From a virus, in the IMG/VR virus record IMGVR_UViG_3300036827_000361, positions 1 to 39,435 of that record: a DNA stretch of 39,435 bases. The stretch is one strand, 5' to 3'. Under the pieces are notes generated by a model, which was given only the letters and a program-made list of their open reading frames with translations, searched no databases and was not told the origin of the DNA. The translations under genes and the position numbers were made by a program. Positions 2,001 through 25,261 of the stretch are shown piece by piece (the first letter of the stretch is position 1; every line of letters starts with the position of its first letter).

Positions 2001-2438
2001 TCAAATAACAACGTTTTGCATACCTGCTAAGCGATAAGAGCCGTATTCTCTGGCGGTGATTTTTCGATGGCAGTTAGCGCAAAGCACTTGGCATTTTGCA
2101 ACTTCTTCCATGAGGAGTTGTAAAGGAACGTTTCTACGAATCAGGTCAGAGATATTCGCGGTCTTGTCTCGTAAATGGTGAAACTCAAGAACAACGCGGT
2201 CAGCCTCACCGCATACAGCACACGGATGAGAAGCAAGGAAATCGTTTATCCAAGCTCTCTTGACCGAGCGGTAATGGTGCTTGAAAGCGTCTCTGGTCGT
2301 CTTCCATTTCGGATAAGAAGCGTTGTGGTAAATCCGGGTACACGGTCGGCAGTACGACTGAAGGCCGTCTGGTCTGCTTGTGTTTTTACTGAACTCCGAA
2401 CGGGGTTTATTTGTTTTGCACTTGGAACAGAACTTCAA
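2001..2438 (-). CDS. HNH endonuclease with N-terminal zinc ribbon
   Basis: 145 residues. N-terminal C4-x2-C7 ... C30-x2-C33 zinc ribbon of the type common in phage HNH proteins (KFCSKCKTNKP), then the HNH core: C73-x2-C76, H87-H88 in an EFHH motif, and C120-x2-C123-H124. It would cut or nick DNA with a single metal ion. The start is TTG at 2438, the only start that keeps the family-typical KFCSKC opening. It lies between the attachment site and the integrase, on the opposite strand, with only 14 bp between the two start codons. Freestanding HNH genes are often mobile. Confidence 0.8.
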   Translation of the reverse strand: MKFCSKCKTNKPRSEFSKNTSRPDGLQSYCRPCTRIYHNASYPKWKTTRDAFKHHYRSVKRAWINDFLASHPCAVCGEADRVVLEFHHLRDKTANISDLIRRNVPLQLLMEEVAKCQVLCANCHRKITAREYGSYRLAGMQNVVI

Positions 2439-2452
2439 GGTGGAGAGATTTA

Positions 2453-3295
2453 ATGTTTGAAACTTTTGTTAAGGAAAAGCGGTATTTGAAAAACGTTACC
2501 CAAAGAACTGAAGAGTGGTACGGGGAAACCTTTAAGTGGCTGGGGATTGAAGCTCCGACCGAAGCGGACCTAAAAGACTGCGTGATAAGGATGAGGCAGA
2601 AAGGTCTTACGGCCTCCTCATGCAACAATCGCATCCGAGCGATTAATTCTTACCTGCATTGGTTGGTCATGGGGATTGATAAAAAATGTGGGCCGGCGTG
2701 CCAACATCTCCGTATTCAAAAAATTAACGAAGAGCAACGGATTTTACCGACCTACACCCCTGAACAGCTCAAGAAGCTGATTGACTTCAAACCAAAGGGG
2801 TTTTATGAACGGCGGCTCTACACTCTTATCCTGACAAAAATCGACACCGGCGTTCGGATTTCAGAACTTATCGGCATCAAAAAAAGCGAACTCAATCTTG
2901 ACGGCCTGTATTTCAAGGTTCTGGCTAAAGGAAAGAAAGAGCGCCTGATTCCATTCTCCATTTCCCTGCGGCGTTATCTGGTCGTTTGGCAGAGGGAGAA
3001 CGAACATGAATTACTTTTTCCAACTGCTGATGGTTTTCCACTTGGCCGGCGAGATGTCTTGCGCGATTTGAAACAGCTCTGCCTCAGACTTGGATTCAAA
3101 GCTCCCGAGAGGTCATTACATGCTCTCAGACACACATTCGCCGTAAATTATCTGCGTCAAGGTGGTTCTGTATTTCATTTACAAAGAGCGCTCGGACATA
3201 CATCTCTTGAGCAATCGCGGAAATATGCAAACCTTATGAATGAGGATTTACAAGAGATGCAGCAGAAAGTCTCGATTCTAAATCGGATGCGTTAG
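2453..3295 (+). CDS. int: tyrosine recombinase / phage integrase
   Basis: 280 residues. Residues 1-90 form the SAM-like core-binding domain; the catalytic domain follows with R135 (GVRISE), Lys in the LAKGKK hairpin (about 159-162), H223 and R226 (HALRHTF), H249 (LGHTS) and nucleophile Y258 (SRKYANL). It catalyses site-specific integration and excision through a 3'-phosphotyrosine link. The ATG at 2453 has a GGTGGAGAG ribosome site. It is transcribed away from the broken tRNA-Pro and has no accessory excisionase next to it. Its length suits XerC/D-like integrases without an arm-binding domain. Confidence 0.95.
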   Translation: MFETFVKEKRYLKNVTQRTEEWYGETFKWLGIEAPTEADLKDCVIRMRQKGLTASSCNNRIRAINSYLHWLVMGIDKKCGPACQHLRIQKINEEQRILPTYTPEQLKKLIDFKPKGFYERRLYTLILTKIDTGVRISELIGIKKSELNLDGLYFKVLAKGKKERLIPFSISLRRYLVVWQRENEHELLFPTADGFPLGRRDVLRDLKQLCLRLGFKAPERSLHALRHTFAVNYLRQGGSVFHLQRALGHTSLEQSRKYANLMNEDLQEMQQKVSILNRMR

Positions 3296-3573: not shown

Positions 3574-3771
3574 TTAGTTCACTTTGACGTTAATCATCTT
3601 ATTGACCGCAAGCTTTGCTGCCGTGCGGTTTGCAGCTTTCAGGCTGACTGAGGACACAATCTTTTTGCTGACGTAAATATCAGCCGTGAAGACCTGAGAA
3701 CTCTCCTGCTCTGGCTCTTTCGTCAATTTCTTTTTGGCCGGGGTTTTTGCTGCTGGTGGTGTTGGTGTCAT
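3574..3771 (-). CDS. hypothetical 65-residue basic protein
   Basis: Lys/Pro/Ala-rich N-terminus (MTPTPPAAKTPAKKK) followed by a short alpha/beta-like part. The start at 3771 has the element's recurrent AATTAA box 8 nt upstream instead of a Shine-Dalgarno site. The gene overlaps the end of the 3680-3949 gene by 92 bases in another frame. The leader box supports the start; function unknown. Confidence 0.55.
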   Translation of the reverse strand: MTPTPPAAKTPAKKKLTKEPEQESSQVFTADIYVSKKIVSSVSLKAANRTAAKLAVNKMINVKVN

Positions 3772-6380: not shown

Positions 6381-6610
6381 TCTTTCAGATGCGCTGATGC
6401 AATAGCGTAGTGGCCTCCCGGCTGCTGAAGGATTGCATCCCGAACAAAACTCATACTCATACCGAAAGCAAGCCGCGAAAATTTGCGGTTCTAAAGACTC
6501 AAGGAAAAGAAAAGCCTCAAAACACTTCTTACTCCATAACTCTTGCTTCGGGAGAGGAGAGGGAGTGAAGGGTCTCCGGTCCTGGGGAAAGAAACGCACC
6601 CACAATTGCA
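6381..6610 (+). ncRNA. structured leader or non-coding RNA
   Basis: A gene-free 230-nt stretch upstream of the RHH gene. A perfect 8-bp stem GATGCAAT/ATTGCATC (6396-6403 with 6432-6439) encloses a second 7-bp hairpin (6409-6415 with 6420-6426, TCCC loop). CCGC/GCGG (6473-6488) forms another. The word GTCTCCGGTCCT (6572-6583) is repeated inside the large RNA at 8252-8263. Strand chosen from the downstream gene. Confidence 0.45.
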
Positions 6611-7500: not shown

Positions 7501-7530
7501 TCAGATACAAGCAATTAAATATCAACACAA

Positions 7531-8025
7531 ATGACAGAAGTAAACTTCGGCGCTGACCTCCAGGCCGCCGAAAAAGAGTTCAACATCGGAAAGGGTTCCG
7601 ATAAATTCAAGTTCAAAGAAGGCGAAAACCGGGTCAGAGTTCTATCTGCTTCCGTTCCTCTTCAAAACACATTCCAAGGCGAGACACGAGTAAAGTTCGT
7701 GACCTGGCTTTGGGATTATTCAGAGAATGCTCTGAGACTCGCATTCCTACCAATCACAATTGTTCGAGCAATCGCCGCATTGCAAGCAAAGCCTGATTAC
7801 GCTTTCACCGAAGTTCCAATGCCGTATGATTTGCTGATTGACGCGCAGAAGCCCGGCACAATTGATGTTGAGTACAGCGTGACCGCTGCCCGTTCAAACA
7901 CAGATGTACCGCAAGAAGCACTTGATGCCCTGGCTAAAGAAAAGCCGGTGGCCGAAGTGGTTGCTTTGATTCAGCAGAAGAATGCCGCGCAAGACGCAGG
8001 CGCATCAGAAGGTCTTCCTACCTAA
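7531..8025 (+). CDS. probable single-stranded DNA-binding protein
   Basis: 164 residues. The N-terminal FKFKEGENRVRVLSAS is the opening strand typical of T4 gp32-like and other phage ssDNA-binding proteins, and the middle has aromatic residues (TWLWDYSEN) and a small-domain layout. The tail is acidic/flexible. It would coat ssDNA during replication or recombination. An AATTAA box lies 12 nt before the start. It is followed by the folded RNA at 8026-8500. Assignment rests on motif style only. Confidence 0.55.
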   Translation: MTEVNFGADLQAAEKEFNIGKGSDKFKFKEGENRVRVLSASVPLQNTFQGETRVKFVTWLWDYSENALRLAFLPITIVRAIAALQAKPDYAFTEVPMPYDLLIDAQKPGTIDVEYSVTAARSNTDVPQEALDALAKEKPVAEVVALIQQKNAAQDAGASEGLPT

Positions 8026-8500
8026 TTGTCCTAGGGGAATCGTGCGCTTCATATGGGCGTGTAATTCCCCTCCTCTGCCCTCAGCGAAAGCTGGGATATT
8101 CATAGTAGCTCCTAATCTTGTATTGGGGGCAGAGGAAATAAATTCTCGTTCTTTCATGGGGGCAGCGTAAAAGTCGTAGTGCGATTCTAGGACGCTAGAA
8201 AAGCTTATTATAAGCAGGTGCAATTCCTGACGCTCCACCACGAGAGAATGAGTCTCCGGTCCTCAGCACTGCTGGGGCTGTTGCTACAGCTCTTAACGCC
8301 AAAATAGCGTTGAGGGCCGGGGAAGTGGCGGAATAGGTAGACGCAAATTGAGGCTAGATTGTGTGCCACAGTAAGGATTTATCCACTACCTGGCTATGAG
8401 GCCTTTACGAAGCAAAACACATGCAAGGTGACTATACGAGTTAAATAAGTTGCTGCGGGTGTAAGTCCCGATAAATACTACGGCGGTTGTACCGCATTCT
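8026..8500 (+). ncRNA. large ornate non-coding RNA (candidate ROOL/GOLLD-type)
   Basis: About 475 nt without a credible gene but dense with helices: AGGGGAAT/ATTCCCCT (8033-8040, 8064-8071); CCTCTGCCC/GGGCAGAGG (8072-8080, 8127-8135) enclosing CAGC-GAAA-GCTG with a GNRA loop (8082-8093); a tRNA-like module (8161-8240); a 10-bp helix (8256-8265 with 8311-8320) closing two hairpins; a tRNA-Leu-like D-arm word (about 8324-8344); CGGG-TGTAAGT-CCCG; and GCGGT/ACCGC at the end. Large phage RNAs of the ROOL and GOLLD classes are known to sit near tRNAs in prophages; membership is an inference. Confidence 0.6.
8161..8240 (+). ncRNA. tRNA-like module ending in CCA
   Basis: GGcAGCGT (8161-8168, one bulged C) pairs with ACGCTCC (8230-8236), followed by A and CCA at 8238-8240. 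Inside are a D-arm-like hairpin (AGTCG/CGATT), a hairpin with only a 4-nt loop where the anticodon would be (CTAG-GACG-CTAG), a variable-arm-like hairpin (GCTTA/TAAGC) and a 4-bp T-arm-like hairpin with loop TGCAATT. It has no usable anticodon, so it is a mimic or decayed tRNA, not a normal one. Confidence 0.5.
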
Positions 8501-8540
8501 TGTCAAATCCTTGCCTTCCTCTTCTTTCTAAAAAACACAA

Positions 8541-8936
8541 ATGAAAAAAGACATATACGAAAACGGGGCAACCCGAAACAAAATTCCTTACCGCTTCGAC
8601 CTTATTCCTGCTGCGGGGCTTGAAAAGATTGCTGCCCGGTTTGAGTTGGGAGTTAGGAATCACGGCGAAAATCTATGGCGGAAGGGTGGCCCGGAATTCC
8701 TTAAATCATCATTGAATCATGCGATTCATCATCTGCTGGATTATTTGGAAAATGGTAATAATGAAGCAATACAGGGGGCAGGTGGAAACTTAGGCGCTGT
8801 GGGTTGGTTCATTGTTGTCGCTGCTGAATTTGAACGCCGGGGTTTAGCTTGGCGCGGCAATAGAAATATCACTCAAAAAGAAAAACAAAATGCTCGCTCA
8901 CACATACGACGACCCGCCAACAAAACATCAAAGTAA
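8541..8936 (+). CDS. dATP/dGTP diphosphohydrolase-like protein (DUF5664)
   Basis: 131 residues. GATRNKIPYRFDLIPAAGLE, then LGVRNHGENLWRKG, then SSLNHAIHHLLDYLENG and a GAVGWFIVVAAE helix match the phage DUF5664 domain, linked to hydrolysis of dATP/dGTP and to altered nucleotide pools. The His and acidic residues of the SLNHAIHHLLDYLE helix are the expected metal ligands, although the second acidic motif (often GEDxD) is degraded to ENGNNEA. The leader is A-rich (AACACAAATG) with no Shine-Dalgarno site. Confidence 0.7.
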   Translation: MKKDIYENGATRNKIPYRFDLIPAAGLEKIAARFELGVRNHGENLWRKGGPEFLKSSLNHAIHHLLDYLENGNNEAIQGAGGNLGAVGWFIVVAAEFERRGLAWRGNRNITQKEKQNARSHIRRPANKTSK

Positions 8937-23299: not shown

Positions 23300-25261
23300 T
23301 TATTTTTGTGGAAGTTGCGGAGTTTGTTGTGGCTGTACTGGCTGCTGTTGAGCGCCTGGGCGTTGAGGTTGCTGCGGCGGTGGTGTCTGCTGTGGTTGTT
23401 GTCCAAGGTCTTGAGGTTGAAGTGTAATTCCGGCGCGTTGTGCTGCTTGGATTTGTCCTGCTGGCGGTAAATCTTTATAGTCCATGCCGATTGTTAAGCG
23501 TTCGGTCATTGGCGGCAGGAATGGCGAGGTAGGCGGCATCAACTCAACTGGAGAAACGACTCCGGTAGCTTCAAGGATTTTATTGAATACAAGTTTGGCA
23601 TTAGGATTGTTTAAGAGTGCTGGGTTGCTTGCGATATTGGTGAGAACGGTTGAAAGGGTCTGAAGAATTGTTGCCTTGTCACCTGTTTCATTTGTTACTT
23701 CGACATCTAAATCCCATTCCAAATCTTTAAAAATCTCTTTCCATGTTTTGCTTGGGATGTCTGATGGCTTAAAGAAGCGCTGATTGCCTTGGGTATTGAG
23801 GCCGTCTTGAACTGAAGATTGAAGCGCGGCTAAGTCTTGATTGCTTGCAATCTGGCCAGAGAGAATTGCTTTTTTCTTTTGGTTATTATCAATCTGAATC
23901 GCTTTGTTCTTAGTATACAGCGCGTCAATTTGGGTAATGTGGTAATCGTCAAGCGTTGCGCTGATTTCTTCGGTAGTATCCATTTGCTTTTTAAGAAATG
24001 GAATGATGAACCGGCGCATCATCTCTTCAACGTGTATTCCTTTGTTCTCGGTCATCACTTCAAAAAGGGAATGAGACTCTTGATTCAGGATTGCAACTTG
24101 TCTAAACGGAGTTCCTGATGGCATCGTCTGCCCAGAGATTGCGTCTGGTGTTGATGTGATGTCTTTAGCGAGTGCTTGCCACTGTGCGGAAAAGTTTTGA
24201 AGTGATGTAATGTCGTGGCTGTTGTTCTGAAGTTGTATTAGGGGTTTGCCGTCTGCGTGAATCAGGATGTCGCCGTTTTCGATTGCGGCCAGGGCGTTCT
24301 GCCCGACAAAATTAGGGTCTGCGGTCTGGAAAATAAGCTTTGAAGCCAGGTCGAGCTGGTCTTTAATCGCTTTGGCCGAATGATTCACCATCCATTGCGC
24401 TTCAAATAAATGTTCTACAGCGCCGATTGCTTGGGTGCGTCCGTCCTCCCTGATAAGGTGCGTAATCATGTAAGGGTCTTGGGCTTCGCGGCCAGAGATT
24501 AGAGAAAAGTCGTCATAACCGTCTTTCTTTTCGTTTTCAAGAAATGAGATGACGTGCATCTGTTGAACATATTTCTTATCATCTTTCTCTTTTTCAGTAA
24601 TGAAGCAGAGCGGGAGTTCGCCGTGAACTTCGTAAAGTTCGATATAGTCGGCGCGAGTGTCCTGATTCTGCTTATCGAGGGTCTTGCGAGTGCCGACCGC
24701 GCTAATCAGTTTTTCAACCATTTCTTGGTCATATCCCTTGCGCATCCGCAATTGTGCCGGTGTAAGGTAAAGTTTTTCAATCTTGGGGGCTGCATCGAAG
24801 TCAACCGGGTCCGCTATCAAACGATTCCAAGGCACAATCATCCAGTGCAGTTCACCTTTTTGTTCCACGAACTTGAGGACGGTTGAACCATAACGAGCCA
24901 GCGAACGGCCCCAATCTTTCAAGAAAGAGCCAAAGTTTTCCCGGCGCATCCACTGTTGCAAATGTACGGTCGCAAGGAAAGCCGGGAAATAATCTGATTG
25001 CTTGGTCGCCTTAACTCGGATGTCTTTTCGGTCCAGGTCTGTAGCGCGATACCAAATGTTTACAGCTGCGGTGACAATGTTAAAAAAAGGCTTCTCGCGT
25101 CCAAGTGAATCGGTCTCGCCAGAAATATGCTTGCTGTTTAAGTAAGCGTCAATTTTTTCAATATTGTCGTACTGGTTGAAGTGGACATAGCGGGAAATGG
25201 TAGTGTTCCCGGCAATGTAGTTCTGTTCCTGTTTTCTAACGAGGTCAAAAATCGTTTGCAT
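23300..25261 (-). CDS. portal protein
   Basis: 653 residues, the largest gene. Strand/helix alternation in the first 350 residues (wing and stem), a long helix with AKAIKDQLDLASKLIFQTA, and a Gln/Pro-rich C-terminal tail (QQPQQTPPPQQPQRPGAQQQ), as in portal rings of podoviruses. It forms the dodecameric channel for DNA entry. Located between terminase and capsid genes in the canonical order. Confidence 0.8.
   Translation of the reverse strand: MQTIFDLVRKQEQNYIAGNTTISRYVHFNQYDNIEKIDAYLNSKHISGETDSLGREKPFFNIVTAAVNIWYRATDLDRKDIRVKATKQSDYFPAFLATVHLQQWMRRENFGSFLKDWGRSLARYGSTVLKFVEQKGELHWMIVPWNRLIADPVDFDAAPKIEKLYLTPAQLRMRKGYDQEMVEKLISAVGTRKTLDKQNQDTRADYIELYEVHGELPLCFITEKEKDDKKYVQQMHVISFLENEKKDGYDDFSLISGREAQDPYMITHLIREDGRTQAIGAVEHLFEAQWMVNHSAKAIKDQLDLASKLIFQTADPNFVGQNALAAIENGDILIHADGKPLIQLQNNSHDITSLQNFSAQWQALAKDITSTPDAISGQTMPSGTPFRQVAILNQESHSLFEVMTENKGIHVEEMMRRFIIPFLKKQMDTTEEISATLDDYHITQIDALYTKNKAIQIDNNQKKKAILSGQIASNQDLAALQSSVQDGLNTQGNQRFFKPSDIPSKTWKEIFKDLEWDLDVEVTNETGDKATILQTLSTVLTNIASNPALLNNPNAKLVFNKILEATGVVSPVELMPPTSPFLPPMTERLTIGMDYKDLPPAGQIQAAQRAGITLQPQDLGQQPQQTPPPQQPQRPGAQQQPVQPQQTPQLPQK

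Follow-up and report, generated by a model that had tools for sequence, protein, structure and literature searches.

The sequence analysed here (the window) comprises the 39,435 bases of IMG/VR virus record IMGVR_UViG_3300036827_000361. An SSB-like gene (7531-8025, + strand; phrog_1192, E 1e-6) is separated from the ATG of the next gene (8541-8936, +), which encodes a dATP/dGTP-diphosphohydrolase N-domain, by a gap at 8026-8540, and the 3′ part of this gap contains a tRNA(Leu)-like element (8319-8521) that is the subject of this work. The terminase, capsid, primase and integrase genes lie elsewhere in the record. Short open reading frames overlap the gap (62 aa on the + strand, 78 aa on the - strand), and none of them matches a family at an E-value below 0.05, in agreement with an initial annotation that regarded the region as non-coding. 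That annotation also anticipated strong folding, and the whole region has a calculated fold of -179.9 kcal/mol (z -3.9), a value that none of 100 shuffled sequences attained.

The element and the features described below are all on the + strand. The core of the element comprises a 7-bp acceptor stem, a near-perfect Leu-type D-arm (GUGGCGGAAUAGGUAGACGC) and a 6-bp T-stem. The acceptor 5′ strand GGGGAAG (8319-8325) pairs with CUUCCUC at 8515-8521, and is followed by U8-G9 and the D-arm (UGGCGGAAUAGGUAGACGC, 8326-8344). The latter segment includes A14, A15, G18 and G19, and is near-invariant in 49 aligned sequences while lying outside the pattern used to find them. A variable middle region (8345-8422, corresponding to 25-166 nt in relatives) stands where tRNA has its anticodon and variable arms, and its last base is U48; the conserved U8, A14, A15, G18 and U48 are all present in the window. 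The T-stem 5′ strand GCAAGG (8423-8428) pairs with 8509-8514, and this helix covaries in a second set of loci (below). The T-loop is opened by an inserted arm (8430-8502) lying between U54 (8429) and U55 (8503). It begins with GACUAU and continues into a stem, ACGAG/CUUGU, that covaries in the family and whose last U is U55 itself; within the arm there is a hairpin with a T-loop-type loop (CGGG-UGUAAGU-CCCG, 8456-8470). The remainder of the T-loop (CAAAU) and the 3′ strands of the T-stem (CCUUGC) and acceptor (CUUCCUC) complete the element (8504-8521). A covariance model of the family (R1) matches it with 104.5 bits (E 4e-25), the window copy being one of the 49 training rows.

The initial annotation had treated the region as a single ornate RNA of 475 nt (8026-8500) with a tRNA-like module, which might belong to the ROOL or GOLLD RNAs or be a new class. 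The existence of a tRNA-like module is confirmed, and the region in fact has two, i.e. a cloverleaf at 8145-8252 and the element at 8319-8521, the second of which had not been separated. Homologues of the element exhibit massive compensatory change, which supports a new class, but the conserved unit is a tRNA-like element of about 125-280 nt. It is the 3′ part of the region (8319-8521) that is conserved, rather than the 475 nt as a single RNA. Nor are the helices that had been proposed for covariation (8072-8135 and 8256-8320) the conserved ones.

Membership of the family

A search of viral contigs with the SSB gene revealed one relative, L002 (78% identity at the protein level), where an intergenic region of 230 nt lies in the same place, and this remained the sole relative when the downstream gene was searched as well. 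Fifty related loci were fetched using the terminase; an SSB profile found no others among these relatives. Searching their genomes with the RNA region by blastn identified L076, which shares the motif GCAAGGTGAC...GCAAATCCTTGCC. Comparison of the window, L002 and L076 showed that this motif closes a tRNA-like element, the 5′ half of which is GGGGAAG-UGGCGGAAUAGGUAGACGC in the window. A leader-pattern match in another locus (L005) was a chance occurrence in an unrelated coding region, and blastn of the whole region returned mainly 5′ halves of tRNA-Leu genes in phages. We note that in the window and L002 the stretch from the T-stem to the ATG (CAAATCCTYGCC.TTCCTCTTCTTTCTAA..AACACAAATG; 8498-8540 and 3699-3739 respectively) is about 90% identical, and that the genes following it are unrelated to each other.

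Viral contigs were scanned with a degenerate pattern of the 3′ motif (AGGTGAC N46-76 SAAATCCTYGCC), which matched at least 80 stretches. Among the 80 matches listed, about 55-60 are preceded, 25-170 nt upstream, by this D-arm and by an acceptor strand complementary to their own; the other 20-25 or so lack the acceptor and D-arm and look like chance matches. A second scan, with a pattern leaving most of the T-stem free, gave 20 further loci. The model R1, built from 49 aligned elements, matched 50 of 50 records of the first batch (many of them training rows) and all 20 loci of the second set, none of which had been used in training. It also matched a further phage, L069, with a different T-stem (GUAGUG/CACUAC). 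The two scans and R1 together place the family in more than 70 viral contigs and five contigs of bacterial assemblies, and several phages carry two or three copies. At 16.9 bits L002 is a divergent but probable member.

Bacterial genomes, as far as they were searched, very rarely contain the element. A strict pattern occurs in only five places in 84,980 species genomes, and among 297 and 395 bacterial genomes of two groups the element was found in the seed genomes alone. Three weak R1 matches in bacterial genomes were checked and were ordinary tRNA-Leu genes. A blastn search with the consensus gave no match in 50,697 phage records or in plasmids, its sensitivity being weak for so short a query. 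No family in Rfam 15 matches the element, and no description of it was found in the open-access literature, where a published account could be missed. The RNA family thus appears to be undescribed.

Compensatory changes in the family

The acceptor stem was analysed in 48 loci selected by the D-arm and T-motif alone, ignoring pairing so as to avoid circularity. At the expected register an average of 6.94 of the seven pairs can form, and 45 of the 48 loci are fully paired. At other registers the corresponding value is 2.9-4.0 (about 3.3), and with shuffled mates 3.86. There are 44 different acceptor sequences among these loci. In the 49-row alignment 96.4% of cells are paired, compared with 77.7% on shuffling and 39-52% when the strands are slid, with 185 double-change cells against 46 in the shuffled control and a covariation score of 0.49 against a maximum of 0.11 when slid. 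These rows were partly selected for acceptor pairing, so the test with 48 loci is the cleaner of the two.

The second set gives a corresponding result for the T-stem, where at least five of six pairs can form in 20 of 20 loci. The two strands vary in concert, examples being GCAGGG/CCCTGC, GCAATG/CATTGC, GCGGGG/CCCCGC, GTAGGG/CCCTAC and GCAACG/CGTTGC. The acceptor is paired at all seven positions in 13 of the 16 second-set elements that have a clear D-arm.

Pairing extends beyond the acceptor. Positions 1-14 of an outer helix are paired in 64-86% of elements, after which pairing falls to chance level. In a 55-row alignment that includes the flanks, double changes occur in 20 of the 21 bp formed by the outer helix and acceptor together. 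G-U makes up 15% of the outer-helix pairs, as expected for an RNA rather than for a DNA palindrome.

The variable regions also contain structure. In the middle region, stems that end 2-3 nt short of the T-stem exceed expectation by about five standard deviations, and a hairpin resembling a variable arm often lies just 5′ of U48. Hairpins with T-loop-type loops occur in the inserts of eight elements, that of the window among them, where shuffled sequences give 1.0 ± 1.1 and three control loops are not enriched.

The initial annotation had named the lack of compensatory changes among homologues as a result that would count against it; such changes are abundant. Taken together, these sequence comparisons indicate that the element is almost certainly a conserved RNA structure under selection that copies the core of tRNA. 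Because compensating mutations preserve this shape in more than 70 relatives, the RNA must serve these bacterial viruses in some way, probably through imitation of tRNA.

Likeness to tRNA and to other structured RNAs

In tRNA the fold is held by contacts that include U8-A14, A15-U48 and G18-55. The family keeps these elbow residues; U8, A14, A15 and U48 are present in 49 of 49 aligned elements and G18 in 45, and none of these positions was in the search pattern. Along with the 7-bp acceptor (ending in G7-C66), the Leu-type D-arm and the long middle region, which recalls class II tRNAs, this is what the element has in common with tRNA(Leu). The letters of the T-loop are also the same (U54/U55-C-A-A-A-U), although they are not contiguous as in the 7-nt loop of tRNA. 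U54 precedes the insert and UCAAAU comes after the inserted stem, which places the insertion between U54 and U55 in family members; the search pattern itself required an insert. The 5′ side of the junction is conserved as U-GACUAU. That AGGTGAC and CAAATCC do not vary in the first set is due in part to the pattern itself.

By contrast, other features of tRNA are missing. The T-stem has 6 bp, the middle region has no conserved sequence, and no anticodon arm with a 7-nt loop is conserved in the family, the shortest middle regions being 25-30 nt. There is no free 3′ end with CCA; the acceptor is continued by about 14 bp of flanking pairs in most relatives. The element remains below tRNA thresholds (Rfam RF00005 at 29 bits, and ARAGORN, which finds no tRNA), and running ARAGORN in its tmRNA, intron and mitochondrial tRNA modes with lowered thresholds gave incoherent calls only.

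A number of other tRNA-like features were observed in these phages. In L163 (353-540) and L201 (3841-4006) a canonical T-arm hairpin (GAAGG-UUCAAUU-CCUUC and GCGGG-UUCGAUU-CCCGC respectively) lies immediately after the D-arm, in the position of the anticodon arm. In a related phage a 113-nt tRNA-like gene (L060 1501-1613, equivalent to G007 24206-24318) follows a run of strong hairpins; it has a good acceptor, D-arm, T-arm and CCA, with a 16-nt loop in place of the anticodon and a variable region of about 36 nt. Upstream of its element (8667-8831, - strand) L098 has another tRNA-like sequence, with a T-arm, D-arm and abnormal anticodon arm, on which ARAGORN is silent.

Bacterial Y RNA (YrlA) also has a tRNA-like domain in an RNA that does not decode. 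In YrlA a helix joins the two ends of the RNA, and the element likewise combines a terminal helix with a tRNA-like domain. However, there is no YrlA match in the window at E<10 when all Rfam families are searched, and Salmonella YrlA lies in the rsr/rtcBA operon whereas the elements are in phage early regions. A Ro60/Rsr (TROVE) gene is absent from 50 carrier contigs, many of which are fragments, and the host could have a copy. For the tRNA-like domain of YrlA, competitive inhibition of a tRNA nuclease has been proposed, though not demonstrated (PMC7790460), and YrlA is the nearest precedent for mimicry acting in trans. The 3′ tRNA-like structures of plant viruses imitate the tRNA elbow by a different topology (PMC4810234), as does the element, but they are the ends of RNA genomes and the elements are intergenic in DNA phages. 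In tmRNA, too, tRNA-like ends flank a middle that is not tRNA. ARAGORN finds no tmRNA here with default settings, CCA is lacking, and there is no conserved tag reading frame, for which the middle (25-30 nt in the shortest) would be too short in many members.

The GOLLD and ROOL RNAs are structured phage RNAs of unknown function often found near tRNAs (PMC12286853). Assignment of the region to these classes was not upheld. A cmscan search of the region against all of Rfam 15 gave no ROOL, GOLLD, tRNA or other credible match, whether at gathering thresholds or even at E<10, and the ROOL, GOLLD and tRNA models did not match the element in its relatives either. Moreover, the conserved unit in this case is about 200 nt and tRNA-shaped.

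Surroundings of the element and its possible function

The 5′ part of the region folds into four further modules, none of which was equalled by any of 200 shuffled sequences. Hairpin 1 (8034-8070; z -3.9 for 8034-8071) has 14 bp with a small internal loop, and is similar to the first hairpin of L002. Hairpin 2 (8071-8136; z -3.6) has a 14-bp outer helix and contains CAGCGAAAGCUG; L002 has a comparable helix of altered sequence (CUUCUGCU/AGCAGAGG). The GAAA hairpin of the initial annotation is present as sequence (CAGC-GAAA-GCUG, 8082-8093), but the minimum-energy fold has the 14-bp helix 8072-8085/8122-8135 instead. The cloverleaf (8145-8252; z -4.7 for 8144-8252) has an 11-bp outer helix, a tRNA-like acceptor and four arms, with a T-loop-type loop UGCAAUU, CCACCA at 8235-8240 and a boxA-like sequence (GUUCUUUC) in the 5′ strand of its outer helix. 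No homologue of the cloverleaf turned up among the relatives, and it may be a different type on the same tRNA-like theme. Hairpin 4 (8253-8323, up to 15 bp; z -5.1 for 8253-8324) competes through its outer five pairs with the acceptor stem of the conserved element. Its inner 10 bp (8258-8267/8309-8318) are compatible with the element, so that the two could stack.

The 5′ modules were not found in the relatives, save for the loosely similar hairpins of the close phage L002. The cloverleaf and hairpins may belong, as additional modules, to the transcript that contains the element. On the 5′ side of the element in L076 (3900-4240) there is a 10-bp helix (GTGCAGGTAC/GTACCTGCAC) around several hairpins, continued by more strong hairpins and GGTTCTTTGAAA; this array is ornate like that of the window and unrelated to it in sequence.

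Some further features of the window are noted here. The sequence GTCTCCGGTCC is present in two intergenic regions, at about 6572-6590 and 8251-8262. The gene starts are preceded by A-rich leaders lacking an obvious Shine-Dalgarno sequence (7521-7531 and 8531-8541, e.g. AACACAAATG), a hint that the host could belong to a group such as Bacteroidota. The 5′ half of a tRNA-Pro-like gene (1911-1954, +), running from the acceptor strand to the end of the anticodon arm (anticodon UGG), lies 0.5 kb before the integrase gene (2411-3295). This is probably the attP core, unusual in being a 5′ rather than a 3′ half.

Across the family the neighbouring genes are mostly co-directional with the element (40 of 53 upstream, 40 of 55 downstream). 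The 71 neighbouring proteins scanned belong to many families, among which the early functions Erf, RecT, Bet, DnaB, NinG, RusA and exonuclease recur, with no family seen in more than three. Since neighbours differ between phages, and often belong to early recombination or replication, the element is not tied to one gene. In single phages the neighbour is a GroEL-like chaperonin, a trypsin-like protease or a Fic-domain protein. A boxA-like sequence (GTTCTTTGA) lies within 80 nt upstream in nine of 58 loci (0.5 expected). An ordinary tRNA gene is found 5-35 nt 3′ of the element in a few loci (L121, L139, L140 and L091), while in many relatives the element is alone between genes.

From these comparisons we suggest, as the best reading, that 8319-8521 could be a phage-specific tRNA mimic that does not decode, acts in trans and is made early in infection, a reading to which we assign a probability of roughly 45%. 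The element would be transcribed within an early operon, as the nature of its neighbours suggests, and a boxA-type signal might help the transcript past Rho in some phages. The long terminal helix (as a substrate for RNase III) and the tRNA-like shape (for RNase P) could lead to the RNA being cut out or protected. With no anticodon arm, no CCA and an extra arm on the elbow, it should not decode. Instead the RNA might serve as a decoy or docking site, presenting the tRNA elbow and the stacked acceptor and T-stem to a tRNA-binding protein, or an RNA, of the host. Its partners would most likely be tRNA-cleaving defence nucleases or enzymes of tRNA processing or modification, and the hypervariable middle and inserted arms would tune the partner.

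A number of observations weigh against this proposal. No protein family is consistently encoded with the element. There is no complementarity between the middle and the insert, and neither has clear targets in the same phage, so that nothing indicates a role for the variable arms. The outer helix is weak in the window copy (7 of 14 positions paired), because hairpin 4 occupies that strand. Lastly, the same-strand placement in operons fits a role in cis equally well.

A role in cis is in fact the main rival to mimicry in trans. In this alternative the element punctuates early polycistronic transcripts; the helix and tRNA shape recruit RNase III and RNase P, or act with boxA in antitermination or processing like nut or put sites, so separating or protecting the flanking mRNAs. 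The intergenic position on the same strand as the neighbours in about three quarters of loci is as expected for this, as are the boxA-like site, which lies within the outer helix's 5′ strand or next to it, the few if any T-runs after the helix in the flanks inspected, and the ordinary tRNA genes that directly follow in a few loci. Yet it is not obvious why punctuation should need so elaborate a T-loop arm, a D-arm that is near-invariant or several copies in one phage, and the element keeps no fixed place with respect to particular genes. We regard it as rather unlikely. If the element were instead a specialised or intron-containing tRNA(Leu), from which the T-loop arm and perhaps the middle are spliced to give a tRNA or a non-ribosomal aminoacyl carrier, removal of the insert would generate a perfect T-loop, UUCAAAU. 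The Leu-type D-arm, and an A following the acceptor in 30 of 48 loci, would also be explained. But that base is itself paired in 85%, there is no CCA, the middle of the shortest members has no 7-nt anticodon arm, the stem of the insert is kept by covariation, and Rfam searches of the window and relatives give no group I or II intron match, making this distinctly improbable.

The presence of further strong modules 5′ of the element in the window and L076 could suggest that it is one domain of a 475-nt ornate RNA of GOLLD or ROOL type that assembles into a particle, and GOLLD linkers can contain tRNAs (PMC12286853). Against this, no Rfam model matches, and in many relatives the element is alone, leaving no room for a large upstream RNA; this seems slightly less probable again. 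The tRNA-Pro half near the integrase might lead one to regard the folding as fortuitous, in decayed tRNA genes or remnants of attachment sites. Compensatory changes throughout the family exclude decay, refuting this for 8319-8521 though not for the cloverleaf at 8145-8252, and as an explanation of the element it is extremely improbable.

Mimicry of tRNA is established in plant RNA viruses and in bacterial Y RNA, but we have found no description of a family of such mimics in DNA phages. The family is found in many viral contigs, often beside early genes, yet is very rare in the bacterial genomes searched. To insert an arm at one constant position in the T-loop while retaining the elbow residues is an unexpected way to build the tRNA fold. 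Tentatively, the family may be a phage regulatory RNA of a categorically new class, in which a tRNA scaffold that keeps its elbow, and whose opened T-loop displays an exchangeable arm, serves unrelated phages in capturing or blocking a host factor that depends on tRNA, such as a tRNA-cleaving defence system. Whether RNase P, modification enzymes or defence nucleases bind the element can be tested directly. Recognition of the family would also improve the annotation of uncultivated phages, whose elements are missed by tRNA finders.
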